In this document: piece after piece, positions 3,438-45,772 of the stretch
How the letters are laid out: each line of letters starts with the position of its first letter
Position numbering within the stretch: position 1 is the first letter of the stretch
Source: a virus
Reading direction: 5' to 3' (one strand)
DNA length: 45,909 bases
IMG/VR virus record: IMGVR_UViG_3300042326_002433
Location: 1 to 45,909 of that record
Translations under genes and position numbers: made by a program
The notes under the pieces: model-generated
What the model was told of the DNA's origin: nothing
Databases searched by the model: none
What the model saw: only the letters and a program-made list of their open reading frames with translations

Positions 3438-4022
3438 GTGAAACAAAAAGACCCCATCAAAAATTTTTTAAAAATAAATAAATCAAAAGATTGGTCTGTA
3501 TCCTATAGCGAAGTTGTTGAAATTATAAATTCTGTAGCAAAAATACACAGATCTAAAAAATTTGGGTTCATGACAGAAGATGATATAGAGTCTCAAGTTA
3601 AGTTAATATGTCTTCAGCAATTAAAATTTTATGAAAAGTCTAAAGAGACAGATAGAAATCCTAAAAAAAATTTAGAAAAGTGGCTTAATAAAATAGCAAA
3701 GAATAGACTTAAAAATTTTTATAGAGATAACTGTTCTTCTGTTAATAAGAAGCACGCAGAATCTAGAAAAAGATTAGCTAGCTCAGCGAATTCTTTTGAA
3801 GAAACCAATTGTTCTTTTGATAAGAACGCAGTAGTCAATTCAAATATTTACAATACTGTAGAATATGAGGAGCTACAAAAATTCGTCATGGAAAGATTAG
3901 ATCCTATCTACCAAGAAATATTTAAAGCATGTCTTTCTAATGAGGCGGTAACCTCTTACTATCGTAATAAACTAGAATTTAGAATAAAAGAAATTCTGCT
4001 AGAATGGAATAATAATGAATAA
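3438..4022 (+). CDS. Sigma-70-family-like phage transcription factor, 194 aa
   Basis: Residues about 46-100 look like sigma region 2: an acidic DDIESQVKLICLQQL helix, then NLEKWLNKIAKNRLKNFYRD, matching the general pattern of a wL..iakN...d..R helix that melts the -10 element. A second helical part near residues 145-190 (LDPIYQEIFKACL, then a basic helix) could be a reduced region 4 or an equivalent of the T4 gp55 tail. The size is close to T4 gp55. I infer it directs RNA polymerase to the GTGTAT promoters in this window. The start is a GTG without a clear Shine-Dalgarno sequence, and the gene overlaps the next one by eight bases (ATGAATAA). Confidence 0.6.
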   Translation: MKQKDPIKNFLKINKSKDWSVSYSEVVEIINSVAKIHRSKKFGFMTEDDIESQVKLICLQQLKFYEKSKETDRNPKKNLEKWLNKIAKNRLKNFYRDNCSSVNKKHAESRKRLASSANSFEETNCSFDKNAVVNSNIYNTVEYEELQKFVMERLDPIYQEIFKACLSNEAVTSYYRNKLEFRIKEILLEWNNNE

Positions 4023-4839
4023 AAAGTTATCCCAATCTCAAATTAAATTTATTAAAGATAATTTAAATCAAGTTTCAGTTGCAGAAATAGCTAGGCAGCT
4101 TAACTGTTCTTATAAAACTGTCGATAGATATAAAAAGAAAATATTAAATGAAGATTTTAATTTAACTGAAGAAAAACCTGAGATTTTAGAAGTAGATAGA
4201 AATCATTGGATTCAAGATATAGTAAATTCTGCAAGAGGAAGAAGACTTAAAAACATTTTAAATAAAGATGAATGGTCTACGTTTTGTGACGAATGGGCAA
4301 GCTATCATGAGCAACTTGAAGACTTAAATCATACTGAAGAAAATAGTATTGAACAAATTATATTGCTTAAACTAAGAATAGATAAAAATCAATATGATTA
4401 TTCAAAGGCTATAAATCTTAGAGATTCTTTAATGCAGGAAAGCGGAGCAAGAGATATAAAAGAATTAGATCTAACTGACCCGTCGCAAGCTGCTGTTTAT
4501 GAAAAAGTTTTTGCTGCTAGTTTGAGAATGACGGATTTAAATAAAGAATATAAAGACTTGCTTGAAAAAAGCACGAAACTAAGCGAAAGTCTAAATATCA
4601 CGAGAAAGCAAAGAGAAGAAAAAGGCAAAGTTGGAGCTGATACTTTTTTTTCTTTATGCAAAAAGTTCGACTCTAAGAAAACTAGAAATCAAGAGGGTCG
4701 GATGGCCGAACTTCTTAAGATTTCTATGGATTCAAAAACAAATCAGCTTAGAAATGCGATAGAATTTATGGACGGAGAAATGGCTCCTCAACTTTTAGAT
4801 TCAGACACCGTAAAAGAAATGAGATTAAAAAATGAATAA
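4015..4839 (+). CDS. Probable small terminase subunit, 274 aa
   Basis: The N-terminus (residues 1-45) is a helix-turn-helix, with SVAEIARQLNCSYKTVDRYK as its recognisable core. A long helical and charged region follows that could form the oligomerisation coiled coil. This layout (DNA-binding HTH, then coiled coil) and its position upstream of an HNH gene and the large terminase fit a small terminase that recognises the packaging site. No catalytic motif is seen. A HTH regulator is the alternative. It is coupled on both sides through the same eight-base ATGAATAA overlap, so sigma-like factor, this gene and gmd should be made from one transcript. Confidence 0.55.
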   Translation: MNKKLSQSQIKFIKDNLNQVSVAEIARQLNCSYKTVDRYKKKILNEDFNLTEEKPEILEVDRNHWIQDIVNSARGRRLKNILNKDEWSTFCDEWASYHEQLEDLNHTEENSIEQIILLKLRIDKNQYDYSKAINLRDSLMQESGARDIKELDLTDPSQAAVYEKVFAASLRMTDLNKEYKDLLEKSTKLSESLNITRKQREEKGKVGADTFFSLCKKFDSKKTRNQEGRMAELLKISMDSKTNQLRNAIEFMDGEMAPQLLDSDTVKEMRLKNE

Positions 4840-5785
4840 AATAGCAATAGTAACAGGATGTCAAGGTCAAGATGGTTCTTATTTATGCGAATTTCTTCTA
4901 GAAAAAAAATACAAGGTATTTGGCGTCTCTAGAAGATGCTCTTCCAGAGAAAATGATTTTATAAAAAACTTCGCTGATCATGAAAATTTTACTTTGATCA
5001 ACTTAGATATAACCGACGCTTCTGGCATAAATAATTTAATATCATCAGTAAGACCAGATGAATATTATAATTTGGCAGCCTCCTCGCATGTTGGGCAAAG
5101 TTTTAAAGAACCTACAGTATCTTTAAAAAATAACGGAGAAGCTGTAGCAATCGCACTAGAAGCAATTGTTAACAGTAGTCCTCTTACCAAGTTTTATCAA
5201 GCTTCTACTTCTGAGCTTTTTGGAAATTCTCCTGGACCTCAGAGCGAAAGCACGAACTTTGATCCTAGAAGTCCATACGCTGCAGCTAAGCTTTATGCGC
5301 ATAAAATGGTTGGTCTTTACAGAGAAGCTTATGGCATTCATGCTAGCTGTGGAATATTATTTAATCACGAAAGTCCTAGAAGAGGTTTGGATTTTGTAAC
5401 AAGAAAAATAACAAGAGGCATATCAAATTTTATTAAAAATGGACAAAAATTTACTCTTGGTAATTTAGAAGCTAAGAGAGATTGGGGCCATGCAAAAGAT
5501 TATGTAAAAGCAATGTGGATAATGTTGCAGCAAGATCATCCTGATGATTATGTTATTGGCACTGGAGAAACCGCTTCTATTAAAGAAGCTTTAGATTTTG
5601 TTATATCTGTATCTGGAATATCAGAGACGCCGTATGTGATAGACGACAAAATGAAAAGACCGGCAGAGGTAAATTTATTGTGCGCTAATCCTGAAAAAGC
5701 CAATAAAAAACTAGGATGGAAAGCAAGTCTTAATTGGAAAGATGTTTTATATGAAATGTATCTCAGCGACACAAAAGATATTTAA
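4832..5785 (+). CDS. gmd: GDP-mannose 4,6-dehydratase, 317 aa
   Basis: The enzyme converts GDP-D-mannose to GDP-4-keto-6-deoxy-D-mannose, the precursor of GDP-fucose, GDP-rhamnose and GDP-perosamine. Nearly every hallmark is present: the nucleotide-binding GCQGQDGSYL near residues 9-18, SRRCSS, FYQASTSELFG (catalytic Thr/Glu region), SPYAAAKLYAH with the short-chain-dehydrogenase Tyr and Lys, LFNHESPRRG, FVTRKIT, and LGNLEAKRDWGHAKDYVKA. The usual GITGQDG here reads GCQGQDG. It is slightly shorter than many bacterial versions (about 340-370 residues) but no domain is missing. It lies inside a packaging operon, overlapping the preceding gene by eight bases, while the glycosyltransferases sit more than 30 kb away. 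Confidence 0.95.
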   Translation: MNKIAIVTGCQGQDGSYLCEFLLEKKYKVFGVSRRCSSRENDFIKNFADHENFTLINLDITDASGINNLISSVRPDEYYNLAASSHVGQSFKEPTVSLKNNGEAVAIALEAIVNSSPLTKFYQASTSELFGNSPGPQSESTNFDPRSPYAAAKLYAHKMVGLYREAYGIHASCGILFNHESPRRGLDFVTRKITRGISNFIKNGQKFTLGNLEAKRDWGHAKDYVKAMWIMLQQDHPDDYVIGTGETASIKEALDFVISVSGISETPYVIDDKMKRPAEVNLLCANPEKANKKLGWKASLNWKDVLYEMYLSDTKDI

Positions 5786-5799: not shown

Positions 5800-6174
5800 G
5801 TGAGATCTAAAAGAGGAGATAGAGATTACGAAGGCTATAGAAAATTTAGAGCTGAAGTTCTAAAAAGAGACAATTTTACATGTCAGTACCCAAACTGTTG
5901 CGTAAGACATGAATTAGAAGTGCATCATATCAAAAAATACTCAGAATATCATAGGCTTAGAACAGAAGTATTTAATGGTATCACGCTTTGTAAGGCTCAC
6001 CACAAAAAAATTACTGGAAAAGAATCTGAATATGAATCCATCTTTTTTAAGAAAGTAATAGCTAACAGCAATCAGAATGATTGGGAAAAATTAAATGCGC
6101 CGAAAAGATTCAATAGAAAGAAAAAAGGCAATAAAAACTTTAAAAGAAACAATATACGCAAACGTAATAGTTGA
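5800..6174 (+). CDS. HNH endonuclease, 124 aa
   Basis: The HNH fold is clear: FRAEVLKRDNFTCQYPNC, then LEVHHIKKYSEY, then FNGITLCKAHHKKITGKE. These provide the CxxxxC zinc-type pair, the HH catalytic pair, the central Asn and the final His pair. The C-terminal 30 residues are very basic (KKKGNKNFKRNNIRKR). Small HNH proteins next to the large terminase are known in phages such as HK97, where they take part in DNA packaging, and that role is likely here given the neighbours. Start choice is open: TTG 5797 or GTG 5800. I favour GTG because of its 8-base distance from the GTGTAT box. Its last 80 bases overlap the next gene in another frame. Confidence 0.85.
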   Translation: MRSKRGDRDYEGYRKFRAEVLKRDNFTCQYPNCCVRHELEVHHIKKYSEYHRLRTEVFNGITLCKAHHKKITGKESEYESIFFKKVIANSNQNDWEKLNAPKRFNRKKKGNKNFKRNNIRKRNS

Positions 6175-6640
6175 TTCTAGAGAAAAAAAACCATGGGATT
6201 TTTCCGAAGGTTTGCCGTCTGAATTTTTTGTTAAAAATATAGAAACCAAAGCTTTACCATGTGGCGATTACTCAATTGATGGATTTTGTGATAAAGATGG
6301 AATTATAATAGAACGTAAAAACAGCATAGAAGAAATAATAGGTAATTTTGGAAAAAATTGGGACAGATTTCAAAAAGAACTAGACAAGTTAGCTGAATAC
6401 AAAAGATCATACATAGTGGTAGAGGACGATTTAAGAGATTCTTTTGCTAGATACTCAATACGAAACCCATTAAAAGGAAAATACTTTACGCTTTCTCCAG
6501 ATTTTATCTTAAAAAGAGTCTGCGAAATAGACCACAAATGGAATGTCAAAACTCTATTTTTATCAAATAAATATTTTGCAAAAAAATATGTATGCAACAT
6601 TTTTAAGCACCTAATAATAGAAAGAGAAAATGCAAAATAA
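6095..6640 (+). CDS. ERCC4-type structure-specific nuclease, 181 aa
   Basis: The XPF/ERCC4 nuclease core is visible: VIVDSREKKPWDF near residues 28-40, LPCGDYSI, then IIIERKNSIEEIIGNF, giving the D..RE, GDY and ERK residues that bind metal and cut DNA. The C-terminal part (RFQKELDKLAEYKRSYIVVE) follows the family pattern. Members cleave branched or flap DNA. In phages they may resolve replication or packaging intermediates. The first 27 residues are basic and are encoded inside the 3' end of the HNH gene, since no later start codon precedes the DSRE motif. It overlaps the large terminase start by 11 bases. Confidence 0.85.
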   Translation: MRRKDSIERKKAIKTLKETIYANVIVDSREKKPWDFSEGLPSEFFVKNIETKALPCGDYSIDGFCDKDGIIIERKNSIEEIIGNFGKNWDRFQKELDKLAEYKRSYIVVEDDLRDSFARYSIRNPLKGKYFTLSPDFILKRVCEIDHKWNVKTLFLSNKYFAKKYVCNIFKHLIIERENAK

Positions 6641-9254: not shown

Positions 9255-9260
9255 ATACAC
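9255..9260 (-). promoter_or_regulatory. GTGTAT box for the endolysin gene (leaderless class)
   Basis: On the minus strand GTGTAT ends 7 bases before the endolysin ATG (9245-9247). The downstream bases AAAATTC contain no ribosome-binding sequence. This is one of only four minus-strand copies I found, and one of two that precede a gene. Confidence 0.6.
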
Positions 9261-9368: not shown

Positions 9369-11357
9369 TTGGAAAAAGAAACTTTTTACACTTCCACAAA
9401 CAATGAAAAAAATGAAGCCTTATCTAAGCATGCTAAGGCTATGTCTTCAGTAGATCCATCACAAATGGCTTTTGGTGGCTTTTACTCTAATGTTGAGGAT
9501 GGAATTTCTGTTAGGCCGCCATTTACTAGAAAAGCATGGGAAAGATTTAGACCAAACGAAAGAATTCCCTCTAAAGATATAGAGATAATGACTGCCTGCA
9601 GGGAAGCCTATGAAAGTGTTGGTGTTATAAGATCTGTTATAGACCTTATGACAGAGATTGCTGTAGAAGGTATTGAGCTTGTTAGTGAAAATGAGAATAT
9701 TCAAAACTTCTTTAAGCAGTGGTCAGAAAAAGTGAATCTTAAAGAAAGAGCTGAAAGATTTGCTAATTATTTTGTTGTTGAAGGAAATGTCGTAGCGGGA
9801 AGAAAATTTGAATCTATAGACATGCCTGCCGTTAGAAGAATGAAGCGAGACTCTGTTAACGCAGCCATAAAATCAAAAATTCCTTTAGAGTACGTTTTTT
9901 ATGATCCTCAAACTATATCTTTGATTGGTGGCGACTTAGCTATATTTTCTGGAGTTAAAAAATGGGCTATTAAATTGGGCTCAAAGAACATAGCTCATTT
10001 TAGAGGCTTGGTCAAAAAGGAAGGAGAGTCAGTACTAGTAAACTTTCCTAAAGAAGTTAAGGCGGCAATTTTGAATGGAAAAGGTAACGGAGATGTATTG
10101 ATCCCATTATCTGAAGATTCCGTATATGTAGCTCATTATAAAAAGAAAGATAGCGATATTTGGGCAAAAAGTTTTATTTATAGTATATTGCATGACGTTA
10201 TTTACAATGAAAAATTACGAATGGCAAAAATAAGCGCGTTAGACAGCTGGTATAACTCTGTAAGATTATGGAGGCTTGGCGATCATAAGGAAGAAATTTT
10301 GCCAGATTTAGGTTCTATCGTTAGGTTGTCTAATGTTTTAGAAAATCACAGCGGAGGAACTTTAGATATTATTTGGGATTCCATGTTAAGTTATGATCAG
10401 TATTTTCCTCCAATTGAAAAATTAGAGAACTTTACTGAAAATTATGAATCAATGCTCCTTGGCTTGGGTGTTCACAAAAGCCTCATAGGAGGAAATTCTT
10501 CTGCTGGAGGTTCTAATGATTCTTTTATGGGTTTAAGAAACTTAATGAAAAGAATAGATGGCATTAGAAGAGCAATTACAGACTGGATAAATGCTGAAGT
10601 TTCTATAATTTGTGAGGAACTTTCATTTCAAAATAAGCCTCGCATAAAGTTTAATGTAGACAATTTATTTGATCAACCTAGTTATTTTAAACTTTTAACT
10701 GAGTTAAATGACAGAAATGTTATCTCTAATCAAACAATTGTAGAAAAAATTGGTGAAATGTGGGATATTGAAAAATCTAGGCTAGATGCAGAAGAAAAAT
10801 TAAGAAAAGATTCGCTTGTGCCAGAAAAATTAAGTCCTTTTATTCAGACAAAAATTTCTGACAGTAATCATAAAAAGAATAAAGAGCTTGTAAATATAAA
10901 GACAGAAAACCCTCCATCTTCACAAAACAATAAAGAGCCGATTAAAACGAATGGTAGACCAAATGGCTCAAAAGATACGGTCAAAAGAAAAGTATCAAAA
11001 AGAATACGGGCAGAGCATTTAGATTCTGCTACTAACTTTCACAATAAAATTGAAGATATTTTAGAGGCCTTTTATTTAGATAAATTTAAACTATCCAACA
11101 AGAGGCAGTTAAACAGTTCTCAGAAAAATGAAATAGACGTAGCCAAAGACAGGGTTTTAGCAAAATTTAAAGGCGCTGATTTAACTGCAGAAGAGATTTT
11201 AGAGGTTTCTCAGTCAGACTCTGTTGAATATCAAGATTTTAAGATCAAATTAAACAAAGAAATTAAGAAAATAAAGTCTCCCACAGTGAACAGTGTTAAA
11301 ACTCTAAAAAACTTTATTATTGCTAATAAATTATCTAAAGTGTATCAAATACCATGA
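9369..11357 (+). CDS. Portal protein, 662 aa
   Basis: Portal rings form the DNA entry vertex of the head. The evidence is both position (between large terminase and protease/capsid) and sequence: AYESVGVIRSVIDLMTEIAV near residues 75-94 matches the start of the portal core, and ENFTENYESMLLGLGVHKSL then ITDWINAEVSII fit the clip/stem helices. The last 160 residues are a Lys-rich, low-complexity extension (PPSSQNNKEPIKTNGRPNGS) with helices, longer than in compact portals. The start is TTG, preceded by GAGGT. The final codons contain a GTGTAT box that seems to serve the next gene, and the stop overlaps the next ATG. Confidence 0.85.
   Translation: MEKETFYTSTNNEKNEALSKHAKAMSSVDPSQMAFGGFYSNVEDGISVRPPFTRKAWERFRPNERIPSKDIEIMTACREAYESVGVIRSVIDLMTEIAVEGIELVSENENIQNFFKQWSEKVNLKERAERFANYFVVEGNVVAGRKFESIDMPAVRRMKRDSVNAAIKSKIPLEYVFYDPQTISLIGGDLAIFSGVKKWAIKLGSKNIAHFRGLVKKEGESVLVNFPKEVKAAILNGKGNGDVLIPLSEDSVYVAHYKKKDSDIWAKSFIYSILHDVIYNEKLRMAKISALDSWYNSVRLWRLGDHKEEILPDLGSIVRLSNVLENHSGGTLDIIWDSMLSYDQYFPPIEKLENFTENYESMLLGLGVHKSLIGGNSSAGGSNDSFMGLRNLMKRIDGIRRAITDWINAEVSIICEELSFQNKPRIKFNVDNLFDQPSYFKLLTELNDRNVISNQTIVEKIGEMWDIEKSRLDAEEKLRKDSLVPEKLSPFIQTKISDSNHKKNKELVNIKTENPPSSQNNKEPIKTNGRPNGSKDTVKRKVSKRIRAEHLDSATNFHNKIEDILEAFYLDKFKLSNKRQLNSSQKNEIDVAKDRVLAKFKGADLTAEEILEVSQSDSVEYQDFKIKLNKEIKKIKSPTVNSVKTLKNFIIANKLSKVYQIP
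11340..11345 (+). promoter_or_regulatory. GTGTAT box inside the end of the portal gene (leaderless class)
   Basis: The codons for the Val-Tyr pair five residues before the portal stop read GTG TAT. The box ends 8 bases before the ATG of the protease gene, and no Shine-Dalgarno sequence is present. The distance is exactly that of the intergenic leaderless examples. Confidence 0.5.
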
Positions 11358-13396
11358 AAATTTTTAATTCAGAAAAGCATATAGCTGATAAGATTCTACA
11401 AAATAGAATTACTGCAGACGCTAGTCTTATATTAAACAATAATTCTGACGTAAAACATTTAGCTTTTGCTTGTCAAGGTAATGCTTGCGCAATGTCAGCT
11501 CTAGGAGGCGCTGATTGGAAGATAACAGACGACGTTACGCCAATATCCTCCATACTAGTGACTGACATATGGAATGCTAATGGTGATCTTTTTACTGCAG
11601 AAGAAATTGTAAAAGCATCTGAAACTCCAATATTTAAACCAATTAACTGGATGCATAGAGGTTCTGAAGACAGTGAAAATGAGAATATTGGGGTAATGGT
11701 AAAATCTATGCTTGTTAGTGGGGATTTGCCTTCTATTGATTTTATGAATGATGTTGATAAAAACAAATTTTTATCTTCTTCTAATAAAACTACATCTGGA
11801 AAAGTCCATATAAAACAAGATGGTCTTATTTGGTCACAGTATTTTCCTTCATATGCTGAGAAGATAAAAGCCGGTATAGAAGATAGAAATCTTTATGTTT
11901 CTATGGAATGCTTTTTTGAAGATTTTGGATATTGTTTAAGAAAAAATGAAGATGACGAAAACATTATTTACGTAGATCGTAATGAAGAAACTTCTCATAT
12001 ATCCGATGACTTGACCGCTTATGGGGGTAGAGGTTATACCAAATATAATGGAAAAAAATATCAGGTTGGAAGATGGCTCAAGAATATAATTTTTTCAGGT
12101 CAAGGTATAGTTATAGAGCCTGCTAATAAAAAGAAAGGTAAAATATTGAGTATCATAATAAATAATAAATCCAAAGCGGCATTAGAAGGGGCTAATGCTG
12201 TTCCGCCAGCTTCATCGGTACCTTTCCCTACTTACCAAAGTACAAATTCTCCACTAAATCCTGATGAAATGCAATTAAATCCTGACGCTAAGTTGGGTCA
12301 ACCAAATATGTCTCAGGACCCTCAGAAGTTGGCTGACAGAGCCAATAAACCAAAAACAGAAGAATTGCCTGCTGATGGACTTCTTTTTTATTCCGCTAAG
12401 GAAGCAGAAAAGGTAGGTACAATAGAACTTGGTTGCACAGGAAGTCATTTATATCAATCCGATAGGCATTCTGATCAGCCTCTTCTTTATGCTGCCCTTA
12501 TGGGTGATCCTACCGATTTAGAGCAGCAAATGAAGGTTCCTATGTATAGACCTTGTGCTGATGAAAGAGAGCTTAGGTTTATTTTACAAGAGCTATCAAA
12601 AAAGGGCGTTACGCAGTTAATGCGTGGGGGTAAAATTGAACAAACTCAAACTACTTCTTTTCAACCAAGCGTTCCTGGCGGAGCAGGAGACCTTCCTTCA
12701 AAACCATCTCAATATCTAGTAAATACTGGAAACCCGCAGCAGGGACCTTTTTATGGCAGAGGTTCAGGTTTAGATGAATCTAATAATTTAGTGTATAAAA
12801 AAAATAGAGTAAATCAAATGGAAAACTTAACAGAAGAAGAAGTTATCAATCATGTAGATAATGCCGCAGAGGTAATTAAAGACCTAAGCGGTGAAAATGC
12901 TCAGTACAAAAATGCAATTGAGGTGGCTACTGCTCACATTAATAACCTCAATAAAGATCTTTCAGAATACGAAAGAGCAGTGAATGAGGCAGCTGCGCAT
13001 ATTCAAGTATTAAATCAAGAGTTACATTCCTATAAAGATTTTGCGCGCGAAGTAGAAGTTATCGCTGATAAGGCTTACACTAACAAAATTGGTGAGGATA
13101 GACTCAAGGAAATGCAGTCTATCGTTGGAGATCAGTACACTAAGGCGGACGTTGCTGAATTAGCGTCTCTTGATGATAAGGGCTATAATGCTCTTAAAAA
13201 TGCTGTTTCAAAGATATCCAAAACCATAGATAAAGAGTTAGAAGAAAACGAAAGAATTAAAAAGGCAGAAGCGGCTTTAAAGCGATCAAAATTTATTCCT
13301 GCTAAAGCCAACATGGTTTTAAATCAATCATCAGAGAATAAAGTAAATCCAGCGGAAAACCTCGTAGGTTTTACGTTGACTAGAAAAAGAAAATAA
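11354..13396 (+). CDS. Prohead protease with C-terminal scaffold domain, 680 aa
   Basis: Residues about 50-270 resemble a prohead maturation protease: ITDDVTPISSILVTDIWN, NGDLFTAEEI, IFKPINWMHRGSE with a candidate catalytic His, then IGVMVKSMLVSGDL and LYVSMECFFEDFGYCL, a pattern of protease domains in large phages. Residues about 290-480 are Pro/Gln/Gly-rich with a small conserved part (LLFYSAKEAEKVGTIELG). Residues 489-680 form a long charged coiled coil typical of scaffolding proteins, ending in a basic tail (TLTRKRK). A fused protease-scaffold with a nested scaffold-only product is known from lambda C/Nu3. The catalytic Ser is not assigned with certainty. Confidence 0.7.
   Translation: MKIFNSEKHIADKILQNRITADASLILNNNSDVKHLAFACQGNACAMSALGGADWKITDDVTPISSILVTDIWNANGDLFTAEEIVKASETPIFKPINWMHRGSEDSENENIGVMVKSMLVSGDLPSIDFMNDVDKNKFLSSSNKTTSGKVHIKQDGLIWSQYFPSYAEKIKAGIEDRNLYVSMECFFEDFGYCLRKNEDDENIIYVDRNEETSHISDDLTAYGGRGYTKYNGKKYQVGRWLKNIIFSGQGIVIEPANKKKGKILSIIINNKSKAALEGANAVPPASSVPFPTYQSTNSPLNPDEMQLNPDAKLGQPNMSQDPQKLADRANKPKTEELPADGLLFYSAKEAEKVGTIELGCTGSHLYQSDRHSDQPLLYAALMGDPTDLEQQMKVPMYRPCADERELRFILQELSKKGVTQLMRGGKIEQTQTTSFQPSVPGGAGDLPSKPSQYLVNTGNPQQGPFYGRGSGLDESNNLVYKKNRVNQMENLTEEEVINHVDNAAEVIKDLSGENAQYKNAIEVATAHINNLNKDLSEYERAVNEAAAHIQVLNQELHSYKDFAREVEVIADKAYTNKIGEDRLKEMQSIVGDQYTKADVAELASLDDKGYNALKNAVSKISKTIDKELEENERIKKAEAALKRSKFIPAKANMVLNQSSENKVNPAENLVGFTLTRKRK
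12791..12796 (+). promoter_or_regulatory. Internal GTGTAT box driving a nested scaffold gene
   Basis: GTGTAT occurs in frame as Val-Tyr codons inside the protease gene and ends 21 bases before an in-frame ATG at 12818. That is the same distance as for the decoration-protein (21) and tail-tube (21) promoters. A weak ribosome site (TAGAGT) lies between. Confidence 0.5.
12818..13396 (+). CDS. Nested scaffolding protein from internal start, 192 aa
   Basis: This is an in-frame internal product of the protease gene, beginning at Met489 (MENLTEEEVINHVDNAAEVI). It comprises exactly the coiled-coil portion: heptad-like helices with repeats such as EVATAHINNLNKDLSEYERA and EAAAHIQVLNQELHSYKDF, then a basic C-terminus that could bind capsid. 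The start falls 21 bases after a GTGTAT box. Phage lambda makes its scaffold Nu3 from the 3' part of gene C in a comparable way. The start is inferred from spacing and domain boundary. The ribosome site is weak. Confidence 0.5.
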   Translation: MENLTEEEVINHVDNAAEVIKDLSGENAQYKNAIEVATAHINNLNKDLSEYERAVNEAAAHIQVLNQELHSYKDFAREVEVIADKAYTNKIGEDRLKEMQSIVGDQYTKADVAELASLDDKGYNALKNAVSKISKTIDKELEENERIKKAEAALKRSKFIPAKANMVLNQSSENKVNPAENLVGFTLTRKRK

Positions 13397-13416: not shown

Positions 13417-13422
13417 GTGTAT
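13417..13422 (+). promoter_or_regulatory. GTGTAT box before the decoration protein gene (leadered class)
   Basis: GTGTAT lies in the 47-base gap after the protease gene and ends 21 bases before the ATG at 13444. AAAGGT between them is a good ribosome site. It would also transcribe the major capsid gene up to the terminator at 15064. Confidence 0.65.
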
Positions 13423-13443: not shown

Positions 13444-13959
13444 ATGGCACTAAAACCCGATAGAAACATAGTAGATGAAGACATTTCGTTCTTCGCGGCC
13501 ACTGGCTGGGCCTACGGTTCAGCTAGAGGCGGTATAGTTGTACCAACAGGCAATACCGCAACAGGCCCATCTGGCGCTGCAATGGATCAGTCAGCTAACC
13601 AGGTTTGGTACGGCCTTAATCCAACAGGCGCTGGACAACCACTAGGCGTTCTTATGAACGATGTAGTTAACATCGATCTAACTAGACAAACCCTTAACCC
13701 CTACAAGTCAGAAGCTCAAGTAGGCGATAAAGTTCTAGTCGCTAGAAAAGGATATGTTGTAACAAATATGATTTATCCAAGCGCTGGCATTACAGTTGGA
13801 GGTAAGGCTTATTTAGGCCCTTCAGGATACATTACTCCAAGTAGCGGAATATTACCTGGCACTTGGGGTGTCGCTAATCTTACAAGCGCTTTCCAGGTAG
13901 GCAAATTCTTGTCGTTGTTAGACGAAGATGGCTACGCCAAGGTTTATATAGATTTATAA
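13444..13959 (+). CDS. Probable capsid decoration/stabilisation protein, 171 aa
   Basis: This protein is rich in Gly, Ala, Thr and Pro, beta in character, with no Cys and few long helices. Typical stretches are GIVVPTGNTATGPSG and QVGDKVLVARKGYVV. The VGDKV...GYV part resembles the small barrel of head-decoration proteins. Its place directly before the major capsid protein, as with lambda D and its analogues, supports that role. The gene is better codon-optimised for high expression (more C-ending codons) than its neighbours, as is the capsid gene. Spacing to the next gene is 21 bases, with AGGT before the capsid ATG. Confidence 0.65.
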   Translation: MALKPDRNIVDEDISFFAATGWAYGSARGGIVVPTGNTATGPSGAAMDQSANQVWYGLNPTGAGQPLGVLMNDVVNIDLTRQTLNPYKSEAQVGDKVLVARKGYVVTNMIYPSAGITVGGKAYLGPSGYITPSSGILPGTWGVANLTSAFQVGKFLSLLDEDGYAKVYIDL

Positions 13960-13980: not shown

Positions 13981-15042
13981 ATGAACAATTCAATTAAAGC
14001 AAGCGTAGACACAGAAGAATTAACCACAGAAGCAAAACAGCTTCTAATTAATGCGGGAAGTAATGATAAGAACGTTGCTCTTAGAGCTCAGGCGTCTATA
14101 GCGCAAGGTATAGCTGCAGCTCTTAACGAGAAGGCAGTTGCTGTAGAAGGTCCTATCAGAGAGGGCATCCTTGATGGTGATATAGTTTCAGATATTTTCG
14201 TAACCGAAGATTTTACTGAAACCACCGACTTAAGAATTCCTCTTGATCTTTTAGCTCCAGGAACTGAGAAAGAGCACGTGGCTTATGTTATACCTGACCA
14301 CGGCAAAATTCCAATGCGTAGAGTTGAGGCTGATTACATTCAGCTTAATACCTACTCAATTGGTAGCTCAATCGACTGCACTAGAAGATTCTTAAAGCAT
14401 GCTAGATACGATGTCTTAAGAAGAATGATTGAAGTTCTTAATATGTCTTTCGTTAAGAAAAATAACGATGACGGCTGGCAAACTCTTTTAGCTGCAGCAC
14501 AAGGTCGTGGTATATTAGCTTATGATGCAGATGCTCCAGCGGGCTCATTCACTCCTAAGCTTATCAGCCTTATGAAAACTGTAGTTCGAAGAAACGGTGG
14601 AGGAAACTCAACTAGTACCGCTAGAAAGAAATTGACTGATATATACATGTCACCAGAGGCTTTTGAAGACATGTCTGCTTGGGGTGCTGGTCTAGTTTCT
14701 GATGACATTAGAACTCAAATTCAAAGAAGTGAAGAAGGCGCTGTTAGAGGTATGTATGGCGTAAACTTCCACGACTTGGACGAACTTGGTGTTGGTCAAG
14801 AGTATCAACTCTACTACAGCAGCACCTTAGGTGGTTCTTTAGGGCCAAACAGCGATGAAGAACTCGTCGTCGGTTTAGACCTTTCTCAGCCAGACAAGTG
14901 CTTTATTCACCCAGTAAGTCAAGAAATTGAAATCACAGAAGATGAAAATCTCCATAGACATGGATTAGTTGGCTTCTATGGTTCGATGGAAGGTGGATGG
15001 GCTGTTCTAGACGTTAGAAATGTTTTAGCTGGCTCATTCTAA
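13981..15042 (+). CDS. Major capsid protein, 353 aa
   Basis: The order portal, protease/scaffold, decoration protein, capsid is standard for HK97-fold phages, and the 353-residue size fits. An N-terminal helical part (residues 1-45) is followed by EGPIREGILDGDIVSDIF, the segment TTDLRIPLDLLAPG, then IQLNTYSIGSSIDC and a C-terminal LHRHGLVGFYGSMEGGWAVL. The RHGLVGFYGSMEGG part resembles the closing strand of capsid proteins in large phages. No clear protease cleavage site can be assigned by eye. It is followed at once by the strongest terminator in the window, and codon use suggests high expression. Confidence 0.8.
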   Translation: MNNSIKASVDTEELTTEAKQLLINAGSNDKNVALRAQASIAQGIAAALNEKAVAVEGPIREGILDGDIVSDIFVTEDFTETTDLRIPLDLLAPGTEKEHVAYVIPDHGKIPMRRVEADYIQLNTYSIGSSIDCTRRFLKHARYDVLRRMIEVLNMSFVKKNNDDGWQTLLAAAQGRGILAYDADAPAGSFTPKLISLMKTVVRRNGGGNSTSTARKKLTDIYMSPEAFEDMSAWGAGLVSDDIRTQIQRSEEGAVRGMYGVNFHDLDELGVGQEYQLYYSSTLGGSLGPNSDEELVVGLDLSQPDKCFIHPVSQEIEITEDENLHRHGLVGFYGSMEGGWAVLDVRNVLAGSF

Positions 15043-15063
15043 ATTTTAGTTATCTAAATAAAG

Positions 15064-15093
15064 ACCACCGCTTTCGAGCGGTGGTTTTCTTTT
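15064..15093 (+). terminator. Rho-independent terminator after the capsid gene
   Basis: A 9-base perfect stem ACCACCGCT / AGCGGTGGT encloses a TTCG tetraloop and is followed by TTTCTTTT. It is the only textbook intrinsic terminator I see. It ends within one or two bases of the next GTGTAT box, so termination of the capsid unit and initiation of the next are packed together. Confidence 0.92.
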
Positions 15094-15099
15094 GTGTAT
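15094..15099 (+). promoter_or_regulatory. GTGTAT box abutting the capsid terminator (leaderless class)
   Basis: GTGTAT directly follows the terminator T-tract and ends 7 bases before ATG 15107. The intervening TTAAAAT has no ribosome site. Since nothing transcribed from upstream should pass the terminator efficiently, the downstream neck genes need a promoter here, which strengthens the case for the motif. Confidence 0.7.
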
Positions 15100-40847: not shown

Positions 40848-41953
40848 ATCAAACCTTTCATTTTTTGAGCGCAAGCATCAATAGAAAAACTATCAATAAT
40901 GTATTTTTTATTTATCTGAGCTATATCTAGAGCTTCATTATAGTTTTCATATACATATCTCATTTTTTCACACATTTGAGTAGTAGAAGGATCTATCCAG
41001 TTTTCATCCCACATGTAATAAAATCCAGAACTATCATTCTGCATTCCAAAGACTTTTTTATAATTAAGATCAGTAATCAAAATATCTTTTAACAAGCTAT
41101 TCTTTTTAATGCCAGATATATTAGGAGCAACAACTGGTTTGCCCTTTAGATAAGCTTGAGCGACTGGAAAGCTATCACCCTCTCCTCTAGACATAGAAAC
41201 AAAGCAATGAGAATCATTTTCTAAACCTTGAAGTTCGTAGTCAGATAGCATTTTTGGTATTAGCAGTATGCTTGGATATGTTTCTGGCCTTTTACCAATC
41301 TGGGTTTTTATTTGAGAAATTACTTTTTTAATTTCTTCTTTAGATTGTTCTACGGCTAGTTTGCTTATATAAGTTTTTAGAACCAAACAAACATTATCAT
41401 TGGCAGAAAATTCAGATAAAAAGCTATGCACGAGACCATTCACATTTTTTTTATTCGAAAAATCAGATATCGAATAAAATCTAAACTTGTCTGCTACTCC
41501 ATATTTTTCAAAATTAAATCCAGCAAAATGGTTCAATTCAATATTTTTTGGCTGATCAACTATTTTAATGGGAACCGAAACCCCAGAAGTTTCACAAGCT
41601 TGCTTTTGTTCTTCGGTATTTACCCATATTTCATCCATTATATTGCAGCCATTTTGCCATCCAGAGCCAATAAATCTATCAGTCTCCCAGAAAAAATAGC
41701 CAATATTTTTAACTCCTTCAATTCTCACAAACATTGAAGGTAAGCATTGCTGTATAACAACATCTACATCGTCAAGATCTGAATCTTCAAGACTAGATAT
41801 TTTTTCATTGTTAATATTTGGATGACCGTTAAGAGTAATCCATACTGGCTTTACATTATAGCCAGCTTTTGAAATTGAGTCTATCATTGCACAAGCGGCG
41901 TTTCCATAGCCAGTGCCGTCTCTATAAACAGATATATAAGCTATTTTTTTCAT
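40844..41953 (-). CDS. GT-B fold glycosyltransferase, 369 aa
   Basis: The N-terminus (KKIAYISVYRDGTGYGNAAC) opens the acceptor domain. NIGYFFWETDRFIGSGWQNG near 85-104 and MDEIWVNTEEQKQACETSGV then lead into the donor domain, where FRFYSISDFSNKKNVNGLVH and FVSMSRGEGDSFPVAQAYLK (near 250-269) give the EG.....A donor-binding pattern. The WETDRFIGSGW and DEIWVNT block is typical of a phage and bacterial transferase subgroup. The overlap with the upstream gene is ATGA, with GAGG as ribosome site. Confidence 0.85.
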   Translation of the reverse strand: MKKIAYISVYRDGTGYGNAACAMIDSISKAGYNVKPVWITLNGHPNINNEKISSLEDSDLDDVDVVIQQCLPSMFVRIEGVKNIGYFFWETDRFIGSGWQNGCNIMDEIWVNTEEQKQACETSGVSVPIKIVDQPKNIELNHFAGFNFEKYGVADKFRFYSISDFSNKKNVNGLVHSFLSEFSANDNVCLVLKTYISKLAVEQSKEEIKKVISQIKTQIGKRPETYPSILLIPKMLSDYELQGLENDSHCFVSMSRGEGDSFPVAQAYLKGKPVVAPNISGIKKNSLLKDILITDLNYKKVFGMQNDSSGFYYMWDENWIDPSTTQMCEKMRYVYENYNEALDIAQINKKYIIDSFSIDACAQKMKGLI

Positions 41954-43638
41954 AAAACCTCAGATGGATCGTTATTAATTTCAAATATATTGTTACAATA
42001 CTTATATCTTTGCTCCTCAAAGATATTGAAACCGTTGACTAAAGTCTTAAAAATGTCTAGAATATCTTTCCTAGAAAATCTTCTAGATTGATTTCCATCT
42101 TGTCTTACTTTAGAACGCAAATTCATTAAAAGCTCTTTCTCAGCAACATAACTAGCGTATGAAGTTTTTGGAGGAGCATATGCTTTTACTAAGTAGGAAA
42201 TGAAATCTTCGTCTTGTTCAATGCTGTTTACTGCATCTTCGTTTATATTAATTTTATTTGCTGGAGCAAACCATCTATTGGGATTAAGGGATGGAAGCTC
42301 AGAGAAAATAGCGTCCCATTTATTAAATGTTTGAGTTGTAGTATGGTTAAGTTCGGCAGATTTTCTAGCCTCTTTAGCTAGATCGCTTCTAACATTTTCT
42401 GGCTCCATAAAAAATGCAGAAATTTTATCTGAGCAATCTTTTACAGAAGGCATAGCTCTAACTTGACCTGTCTCTTTATCAGACTCTTCTCTCCATGCGG
42501 CAACTTCTATGCCTCCATACGAGCCACCCATTCTATTCAGTTCATACATAGCAGCATAATCAGTGGCTATTGTGGGAACTCCACAAGCTTTAGCTTCGAT
42601 TAATGGTATCTCTAAAGCTCCTGCGATACTTAATTGGCAATATAAATCAGCACTATTGTAAACAGTAGCCAATTGCTCTCTAGTTAAGCCTAAAGCGGTA
42701 TTTGGTGGGTGCGCAGTATAATTATTGCAAGAGTGACAGTAGCAAACTTCCCCAGCAAAGAAAGAAGCAAAATAATAGCCGCAATGATTGCAGCAATAAG
42801 TCATTACTACTTTAGAAGCCAACTTATATTTAATAATATCTTTTCCAATATCAAATCCAACGTCTGGATAACTTGTATGTAGGTATAAGTAAGTATTATC
42901 TACTAAATTCTTAAGCCCTTTGTCATCCCAAACGCCTAAAGCATCTTTAAATGCTTTCATTAGGTCTGGAAAAAGCTTTCTTGGCTGATTTCTCATAACC
43001 GTTAAAACTAACTTTATGTCTTCTTTGAGACCAAGAAGTTTTCTAGCTTCAGCCTTTGATGTTGGCTTAAAAATATTAAGATCAACACCAGGCATAGCAT
43101 TATTTCTAGCGATAGATATTTTATTGCCGGAATAGTTTTTCACTACCGATAAACCCCAATCGGAATAAGATGTGACCTTATCAACAGATGAATACGTGCC
43201 AATCCATTCTGCGCGAGGAGGTTCAGAATCAACACAAGCCGACCATACATAGTTAAATAGATATCTTGACGGCATTTTTGTGATCCATTCGTCATGCCAA
43301 AAATCTCTATAGGAAAAAACTATGTCTGGTTTAAATTCTAAAACAGCTCTATCAAATCTATAATGACCAAATTGAGCGGTTCTATAATTTTCATTATATA
43401 CTTTTCTCTCTTCTGGATTTGATGGAACTACTGGATATACTTTCCAAGGAACAGATCTAATTCTTGGATCATTATCCTCTACATATGAGGCTAATTCAGC
43501 AACCTCATATTTACCACTAGCATGTAGCTTAGTTAGTAAGTCATGAGCCATCACCGAAAATCCAGTATTTAATCCACTAAACTCAGTAACTAAAAGAACT
43601 CTAGTTTTTTTTGCCTTTTGCAAATCCTGCATATCCAT
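41950..43638 (-). CDS. Family 4-type glycosyltransferase with a Cys-rich zinc-ribbon insert, 562 aa
   Basis: The acceptor domain opens with VLLVTEFSGLNTGFSVMAHD. The donor domain has KLVLTVMRNQPRKLFPDLMK near 210-229 and ends with LYCQLSIAGALEIPLIEAKA (near 332-351), where E in LIEAKA is the donor-binding acid and CGVPTIATDY follows. Between them a ribbon is inserted near residues 280-305: CCNHCGYYF, then EVCYCHSCNNY, with two CxxC pairs that can bind zinc. I recall similar Cys-rich ribbons in a few phage transferases. A C-terminal extension of about 110 residues is helical. The start overlaps the 57-residue ORF at its 5' end and has AAAGG upstream. Confidence 0.85.
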   Translation of the reverse strand: MDMQDLQKAKKTRVLLVTEFSGLNTGFSVMAHDLLTKLHASGKYEVAELASYVEDNDPRIRSVPWKVYPVVPSNPEERKVYNENYRTAQFGHYRFDRAVLEFKPDIVFSYRDFWHDEWITKMPSRYLFNYVWSACVDSEPPRAEWIGTYSSVDKVTSYSDWGLSVVKNYSGNKISIARNNAMPGVDLNIFKPTSKAEARKLLGLKEDIKLVLTVMRNQPRKLFPDLMKAFKDALGVWDDKGLKNLVDNTYLYLHTSYPDVGFDIGKDIIKYKLASKVVMTYCCNHCGYYFASFFAGEVCYCHSCNNYTAHPPNTALGLTREQLATVYNSADLYCQLSIAGALEIPLIEAKACGVPTIATDYAAMYELNRMGGSYGGIEVAAWREESDKETGQVRAMPSVKDCSDKISAFFMEPENVRSDLAKEARKSAELNHTTTQTFNKWDAIFSELPSLNPNRWFAPANKININEDAVNSIEQDEDFISYLVKAYAPPKTSYASYVAEKELLMNLRSKVRQDGNQSRRFSRKDILDIFKTLVNGFNIFEEQRYKYCNNIFEINNDPSEVL

Positions 43639-44242: not shown

Positions 44243-45772
44243 TTATGCGATTTTTACACTTTTTACTGACCAACCATTACCAGTACCAATTAAATTTACT
44301 AAATAATATCCATCTTCACTAATAATTCCTCTAATTTTTTGATAGTCTTCTGGAAAGCATACTACGTTAATACTTCCAGTATTATCTGATATTTTAAATC
44401 TTGCCATTTCTTGACCAGGATTTTTACCCTTCTTTGTTAGTAGAGTTGATATTTCGCTTACTTTTACTGATAGGTTTATCGATGTATTTTTATTGTTCTT
44501 ATAATTTTTAAAACAATCTTTGCAGCTTCCTTCGTCGGATTGATTTAAGTTATAATCATAAGTAAAAGAAAAACCCATTAGATCTTTTTCTTTTGATGCA
44601 AGAATTGGAGAAGAGTCAATAGCCTTTATATCTATAGCTTTAGCTTCAGATTTAACTATTTCCTTTCTGCTTTTTACGGATTGCTTATCTCCACACTCGT
44701 AAACGCAATCAATAAGATCTTTGATTGAATTGAAAGTTTTTTTATGGAAAATAAATTCAATTTCTTTTTTTGTTAATTCTTTAAGCATTAAGAATATTGA
44801 ATTCATTGTTGAGCGTGATATACCATAGTTGTCACAAGCTCCAGAGTTAATCAAGCTTTCTACTGCTTGACCTCTAATTTTATTATCTTCAGAAGCATCA
44901 AAATGCATTCTTAATAATTCGTAAAAACTAGAAGGTCTAGTATTTTCTATACAAGCAGCGTCATTTTCACCAACTTGTTTTATGTGAGATAATCCAAAAT
45001 AAATACTTTTTTTGCCATTTTCATCCACAAAATAAAAGTCTGACTTAGAAATGGATATATCGGGCTTTTTTATTTCGATGCCCAACATTCTAGCCTCATT
45101 TATTAAATCAGAGATTTCTTCTCTAGGCTTTTGCTTACCTTTACTATAAGTTAGGTAAGTGCAATAGAATTCTAGAGGAAAATTTGCCTTTAGATATGCT
45201 GTTTTATAAGACCATAGGGCATATTTTTTAGCGTGAGCATCATTAAAAGCATATCTACCAGCACCTTCAATAAGCTCAAATAATTTTTCGCTAGTCTCTT
45301 TTGATCTTCCGTTTTTTATACATCCATTTATAAATTTATCTTTTAAATCTAAAATTGTTTTTTGATCTTTTTTACCAATACCTTTTCTTAATTTATCAAC
45401 AATGACTAATCTATCGATATAATTTAGATCGGACCAAGCTATTTCGCTTCCGAACTTCATAAGCTGCTCTTGATAGATTAGGACTCCAAGAGTGGGTTCT
45501 AAAATTTTATTAATTGCTTCATCGTTATAGTCAGGCATTTCAGACATTCCAAATTTAACTTTGAAATAGGAATCTGTCATGCCAGCTTCTAGACATGCTG
45601 GTCTAATTAATGAGATAACGGCGCTAAGTTCATTTATATTAGAAGGCTTAATCGTTGAGGCCCATCTTTTTCCAAGATCACTTTCTAGCTGAAAGACGCC
45701 GATAGTGTGTCCATTTTGGATAAGTCTCCAAGCCTTTTCATTTTTTAATGATATATCAGAAGTTGTAAACAT
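44243..45772 (-). CDS. DNA polymerase III alpha, C-terminal half (fingers to OB), 509 aa
   Basis: The protein matches the second half of bacterial DnaE-type replicative polymerases. It opens with KAWRLIQNGHTIGVFQLESD (family: GdT.GVFQLES.G), then SLIRPACLEAGM, ILEPTLGVLIYQEQLMKFGS, VDKLRKGIGKKDQ and FNDAHAKKYALWSYKTAYLK. HhH and OB parts follow (DNTGSINVVCFPEDYQKI). The catalytic palm aspartates lie before the GVFQLES block in full-length DnaE, and no palm or PHP sequence exists in this frame. A clear AAGGAG ribosome site and ATG show a genuine start, so the gene is a split subunit, not a truncated read. The N-terminal half should be encoded elsewhere. Confidence 0.88.
   Translation of the reverse strand: MFTTSDISLKNEKAWRLIQNGHTIGVFQLESDLGKRWASTIKPSNINELSAVISLIRPACLEAGMTDSYFKVKFGMSEMPDYNDEAINKILEPTLGVLIYQEQLMKFGSEIAWSDLNYIDRLVIVDKLRKGIGKKDQKTILDLKDKFINGCIKNGRSKETSEKLFELIEGAGRYAFNDAHAKKYALWSYKTAYLKANFPLEFYCTYLTYSKGKQKPREEISDLINEARMLGIEIKKPDISISKSDFYFVDENGKKSIYFGLSHIKQVGENDAACIENTRPSSFYELLRMHFDASEDNKIRGQAVESLINSGACDNYGISRSTMNSIFLMLKELTKKEIEFIFHKKTFNSIKDLIDCVYECGDKQSVKSRKEIVKSEAKAIDIKAIDSSPILASKEKDLMGFSFTYDYNLNQSDEGSCKDCFKNYKNNKNTSINLSVKVSEISTLLTKKGKNPGQEMARFKISDNTGSINVVCFPEDYQKIRGIISEDGYYLVNLIGTGNGWSVKSVKIA

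Follow-up and report, generated by a model that had tools for sequence, protein, structure and literature searches.

The window considered here is a virus record from IMG/VR, 45,909 bases long with 34% G+C. On its plus strand, at 11354-13396, lies a gene encoding a fusion of protease and scaffold, 680 amino acids in full length, in which three parts can be distinguished. The first (residues 1-273, 11354-12172) is assigned as a prohead protease domain through its predicted model and the Foldseek matches of that model. Modeled alone, the domain attains a pLDDT of 84.9, and in a viral library it matches predicted structures of named phage prohead proteases, with E-values from 5e-7 to 3e-5. Against the PDB, the model of the domain gave no fold match, so catalysis can only be inferred, and H101, S183, and E185, all among the invariant residues of the domain, are no more than candidates for the active site. 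The earlier note on this DNA had placed a protease-type domain upstream of the scaffold, and the prohead-protease fold of the predicted model bears this out; the domain is best described as a putative head-maturation protease. (A structure model of the whole 680-residue protein, with a pLDDT of 55.7 and no fold match, was set aside in favor of the domain alone.) The protease model also matches Gp19 of Bacillus phage G (E 2e-8).

The second part is a linker (12173-12790), variable in both length and sequence and modeled with low confidence, although one segment (about residues 376-416) is better conserved. The third is the nested open reading frame of 192 amino acids that would begin at Met489 (12818-13396, plus strand) and that consists mostly of long helices (residues 494-645). 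In the full-length model, the long helix begins at residue 494, five residues past Met489, so the proposal that the internal start lies at the boundary between linker and coiled coil holds. A search of PDB sequences with the protease-scaffold protein returned coiled coils only, and among phage isolates neither the protease nor the capsid protein found a match. In one relative (L048, 175-1815, taken together with L029), the linker segment and scaffold make up a separate open reading frame that contains a long insert and apparently does not share the frame of the protease, so far as this can be judged across a gap of 10 bases between these two loci.

At 12791-12796, in frame with the long gene, stands the hexamer GTGTAT, which spells codons 480-481 (Val480-Tyr481). 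Between it and the in-frame ATG at 12818 there are 21 bases, and from Met489 to the stop codon there are 192 codons. The neighboring gene is preceded in the same manner, by a GTGTAT at 13417-13422 and an ATG at 13444, likewise with 21 bases between them. Both the in-frame hexamer ahead of an in-frame ATG and the equality of the two spacings had been claimed from the sequence beforehand, and both claims are correct. Another copy (11340-11345, plus strand) lies 8 nt before the ATG of the protease-scaffold gene itself, within the 3' end of the upstream gene, which occupies the position of the portal. All close relatives examined, save L049, have GTGTAT 5' of the protease ATG, and all close relatives have the element before the neighboring gene, in the form GGGTAT in L048 and L049.

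That neighboring gene (13444-13959) encodes a conserved structural protein of 171 amino acids, matched in two relatives to phrog_563, a virion structural protein (best 1.7e-4); its putative role in head decoration is inferred from position. It is followed by the gene for the major capsid protein (13981-15042, 353 amino acids), identified through phrog_2522, a major head protein that 12 of the 13 family members match (best E-value 5.5e-9), and then by the intrinsic terminator that ends the capsid unit (15061-15088). All are on the plus strand. Directly after the T-run of the terminator come another GTGTAT (15094) and an ATG (15107). The capsid protein of one distant relative (L056, 5971-6975) weakly matches the major head protein of Bacillus phage G (21% identity, E 3e-5).

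The order of these genes is like that of lambda C/Nu3, where the prohead protease gene holds a nested in-frame scaffold gene in its 3' end, with decoration and capsid genes after it. Lambda C, however, is an S49 peptidase (PMC10695390), and no member of the present family has a Pfam match to the S49 peptidase domain.

Conservation of the internal hexamer and start

A scan of IMG/VR found 28 related loci, and 27 of them (identity 42-100%) reach the internal site. The exact hexamer is kept in all 27, inside a hypervariable linker. Four of the 27 do not differ from the window, and it is the other loci that provide independent evidence. For a comparison of codons, 11 representatives with less than 90% identity were used, which are 43-85% identical to one another. 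Among these, there are 46 four-fold degenerate columns with an invariant residue, and 44 of the columns vary in codon. Only P96 (CCA) and V480 (GTG) are confined to a single codon, and GTG is the rarest valine codon, making up about 8% of valine codons outside the V480 site. The naive probability of drawing GTG 11 times is 6e-14, a figure that ignores ancestry and is only indicative. A better control is provided by the five other invariant valine columns, each of which uses three or four codons. Over the codons for V480-Y481, pairwise DNA identity is 1.00, as against 0.29-0.72 for the linker and the start of the scaffold on either side, and GTGTAT is not used for any of the 25 other Val-Tyr pairs that these genes encode. 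Chance falls far short of accounting for the internal copy.

In more distant relatives, the element is found in another frame or in altered form. L055 and L056 (capsid proteins 37-39% identical) carry it inside the homologous gene in a different frame (GT GTA T), followed by a strong Shine-Dalgarno sequence (SD) and then by the ATG of the coiled coil, and in L055 the internal site, CGTGTATATAATAGTA, is the same as its two intergenic elements over 16 bases. Since in distant relatives GTGTA[TC] falls in a frame other than that of the window, it is evidently the DNA word that is selected and not the amino acids. L048 and L049 have GGGTATAA at the internal site (1153 and 4605, respectively) and likewise before the decoration gene (1837 and 5377), and they retain GTGTAT at other genes. 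With GGGTATAA at both places, the internal copy changes together with the neighboring promoter. Perhaps GGGTATAA represents a second promoter class.

A wider set, fetched with the protease domain, comprised more than 580 relatives, among them 61 distinct genes in which the end of the domain is clear. In 59 of these 61, an ATG preceded by an SD lies within 70 codons of the domain end (180 codons for L055 and L056), compared with 52 of 179 control genes that reach the same SD strength under a best-of-six rule. An internal in-frame start where the scaffold begins is therefore conserved. GTGTA[TC] is found within 110 nt 5' of the nested ATG in 30 of the 61, and in an overlapping set it occurs in 32 of 59 genes, against 2.75 expected, in every case in the second frame. 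In the window, the SD-like TAGAG (12805-12809, plus strand) is weak, at -2.4 kcal/mol versus -5.6 to -7.8 in most relatives, where GGAG, AGAGG, or GAGAGG is found. The nested start codon is TTG in relatives L008-L011.

Perhaps the scaffold is made by internal initiation of translation on the full-length mRNA, and the internal GTGTAT is no working promoter. Lambda Nu3 is made by internal translation and, to our knowledge, lacks a promoter of its own, so there is precedent. It also speaks for this possibility that the SD and ATG at the junction are conserved more widely than GTGTA[TC] (59 versus 30 of the 61), and in the half of the wider relatives without a recognizable GTGTA[TC], internal translation alone may suffice. 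In the clade of the window, however, it is the hexamer that is invariant as DNA, while the SD varies and in the window is weak. Internal translation by itself would also leave unexplained why GTGTAT stands 18-21 nt upstream and why it does so in two reading frames. We consider this explanation unlikely.

GTGTAT as a predicted promoter element

GTGTAT occurs 18 times in the window, which is not above chance (the mean of shuffled sequences is 12.5, and 9 of 100 shuffles reach 18), so only its position counts. Eleven of the 18 precede a gene start by 5-23 nt, the top positional enrichment of all hexamers (binomial p ~6e-15), and in relatives 129 of 247 unique sites are near a gene start. Distances to the ATG form two peaks, near 8 and near 20 nt, with 43 sites at 7-9 nt and 59 sites at 17-24 nt. 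An SD is present at none of the short-distance sites but at 48 of the long-distance sites. Two such peaks are what is expected of a -10-like element if the first transcribed base lies about 8 nt past it, so that the message either begins with the A of the ATG and is leaderless or has a short leader. Outside the hexamer there is only a weak TT 19-20 nt upstream; the element would be a single TGTAT without a -35 partner.

Genes directly behind an intrinsic terminator need a promoter, and they therefore provide the strongest test. In 21 of 24 such genes, GTGTAT lies between the terminator and the ATG, and the three exceptions are ORFs called on the minus strand, all of doubtful appearance. (A scan for generic sigma-70 promoters gave the same number of hits as in shuffled sequences and was uninformative.) To judge from its placement, and in the absence of transcript mapping, GTGTAT behaves as the promoter element of this phage.

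Might the element act instead in RNA, through processing or ribosome binding, with the short form coming from a processed transcript? At the 7-9 nt sites, GTGTAT is about as far from the ATG as a ribosome-binding sequence would be. In the long class, however, GTGTAT sits 5' of a separate SD, and in those 21 genes, which directly follow strong terminators, nothing but GTGTAT precedes the ATG, so the element must restart transcription. An action in RNA is very improbable.

A promoter of similar design is known from phiEco32, where the gp36 promoter, tAATGTAtA, is a single element with a start 6-8 bp downstream and the sigma factor has no region 4 (PMC8948821). The present element is likewise single and likewise contains TGTAT, but it reads GTGTAT instead of tAATGTAtA. 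The window encodes a candidate phage sigma factor of 194 amino acids with region 2 only (3438-4022, plus strand). All 13 members of its family match the sigma factor phrog_1740 (best 1.6e-6, the window copy only 0.0073), and 9 of 13 match Pfam Sigma70_r2 (best 0.0034, below cut-off). A region 2-like protein is found in all relatives examined that cover that place; the scores of the window copy are weak and below curated cut-offs. Only the analogy with phiEco32 gp36, and no direct test, suggests that this putative sigma reads GTGTAT.

The sigma-like gene lies just upstream of the packaging genes, and larger relatives encode another sigma besides, which is more clearly recognizable and has both region 2 and region 4. 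A 274-amino-acid ORF (4015-4839) was considered as a partner supplying sigma region 4 and was rejected: many HTH families match it equally well, and it also occupies the expected place of the terminase small subunit. Elsewhere in the record are genes for a GDP-mannose dehydratase (4832-5785, Pfam 2e-105), an ERCC4-type nuclease (6095-6640, Pfam 4.5e-10), a glycosyltransferase (41950-43638, PHROG 9.5e-25), and, near the record end, a DNA polymerase (44243-45772, PHROG 1e-88).

Two predicted products of one reading frame

The best explanation as a whole is that one open reading frame gives two 3'-coterminal products, the scaffold having an internal promoter of its own, and we put the probability of this reading at about 0.83. 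After comparison with relatives, the nested scaffold gene with its own promoter is a well-supported prediction, and that promoter is predicted to lie within the protease ORF; sequence and its comparison are the only grounds for this, there being no RNA, ribosome, or protein data. The earlier note had already proposed such a promoter, and the proposal gains support from the fact that the DNA word is kept whichever of two reading frames it falls in. Almost no credence is left for the idea that there is no nested product and that self-cleavage of the fusion alone separates scaffold and protease, with Val-Tyr serving as a motif of the protein, for instance as a cleavage site: prohead proteases do often self-cleave and Val-Tyr is invariant across the close clade, but the codons are fixed and not the residues alone, the DNA word persists out of that frame in distant relatives, and the conserved SD and ATG would be left without a role.

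If the scaffold does have an internal promoter, an RNA polymerase that is modified by the phage, and that probably carries the region-2-only sigma of 3438-4022, would start at about 12803-12806. This region, 6-9 nt past the element, is inferred from the geometry of GTGTAT and ATG and from the phiEco32 gp36 promoters. The resulting mRNA would have a short leader and would read the scaffold, decoration, and capsid genes up to the terminator at 15061. Capsid assembly needs many copies of the scaffold and few of the protease. With promoters at 11340, 12791, and 13417 stacked on one terminator, the protease should be made least, the scaffold more, and the shell proteins most, so that dosage would rise stepwise from protease to scaffold to shell. 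Since the fusion has its scaffold tail in common with the free scaffold, it may co-assemble with it, which would bring a few copies of the protease into the prohead, where the protease would later remove the scaffold. The shared tail alone proves neither co-assembly nor excess, and the excess of the short form over the fusion remains an inference.

The earlier note was right to name lambda Nu3 as a precedent, but it missed a closer one in the herpesviruses. The short form of UL26 starts in the middle of UL26 (PMC12474303), and in HSV-1 the UL26 ORF contains both the promoter and the transcription unit of UL26.5, to judge by the title of a 1991 paper by Liu and Roizman that PMC4498786 cites. 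As with UL26/UL26.5 (UL80/UL80.5 in CMV), the gene in the window is a protease-scaffold fusion that holds an in-frame, 3'-coterminal scaffold gene. Unlike them, it belongs to a bacterial virus and has a phage-type promoter element with an SD, and experimental proof exists only for the herpesviruses. Homology to the herpesvirus assemblin (peptidase S21) was not detected by PDB sequence or fold match or by Pfam, which does not exclude distant homology. The gene in the window is predicted to work like UL26/UL26.5; its membership in that protein family is not claimed. In the literature, so far as our incomplete coverage extends, we found no phage whose scaffold is reported to have a promoter of its own within the gene for the protease.

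It seems likely that a large group of uncultivated tailed phages sets the ratio of scaffold to protease by a promoter internal to the protease gene and read by a phage sigma, a counterpart to UL26/UL26.5 that would be either convergent or derived from a common ancestor of the viruses with the HK97 fold. Herpesviruses place a promoter inside the protease gene, and lambda, the best-known phage case, relies on internal translation. If phages also have a version driven by a promoter, the two branches of the HK97-fold viruses offer a direct parallel. Promoter words frozen in their codons inside genes may also offer a way to find nested genes from sequence alone, and GTGTAT may serve as a readable late-promoter word for a large uncultivated group, including many genes that appear to be leaderless.

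Sites with GTGTAT 7-9 nt before the ATG, which leaves no room for an SD, are found in the window at 15094, 11340, and 34890 and, on the minus strand, at 9260 and 689, as well as at the 43 sites in relatives. Several of these sites are directly behind terminators, and leaderless late mRNAs are predicted for the class as a whole. At 680-689, the overlapping palindrome GTGTATACAC presents GTGTAT on both strands, so a bidirectional promoter is possible; its minus-strand copy is 7 nt from the ATG of ORF 188-676.
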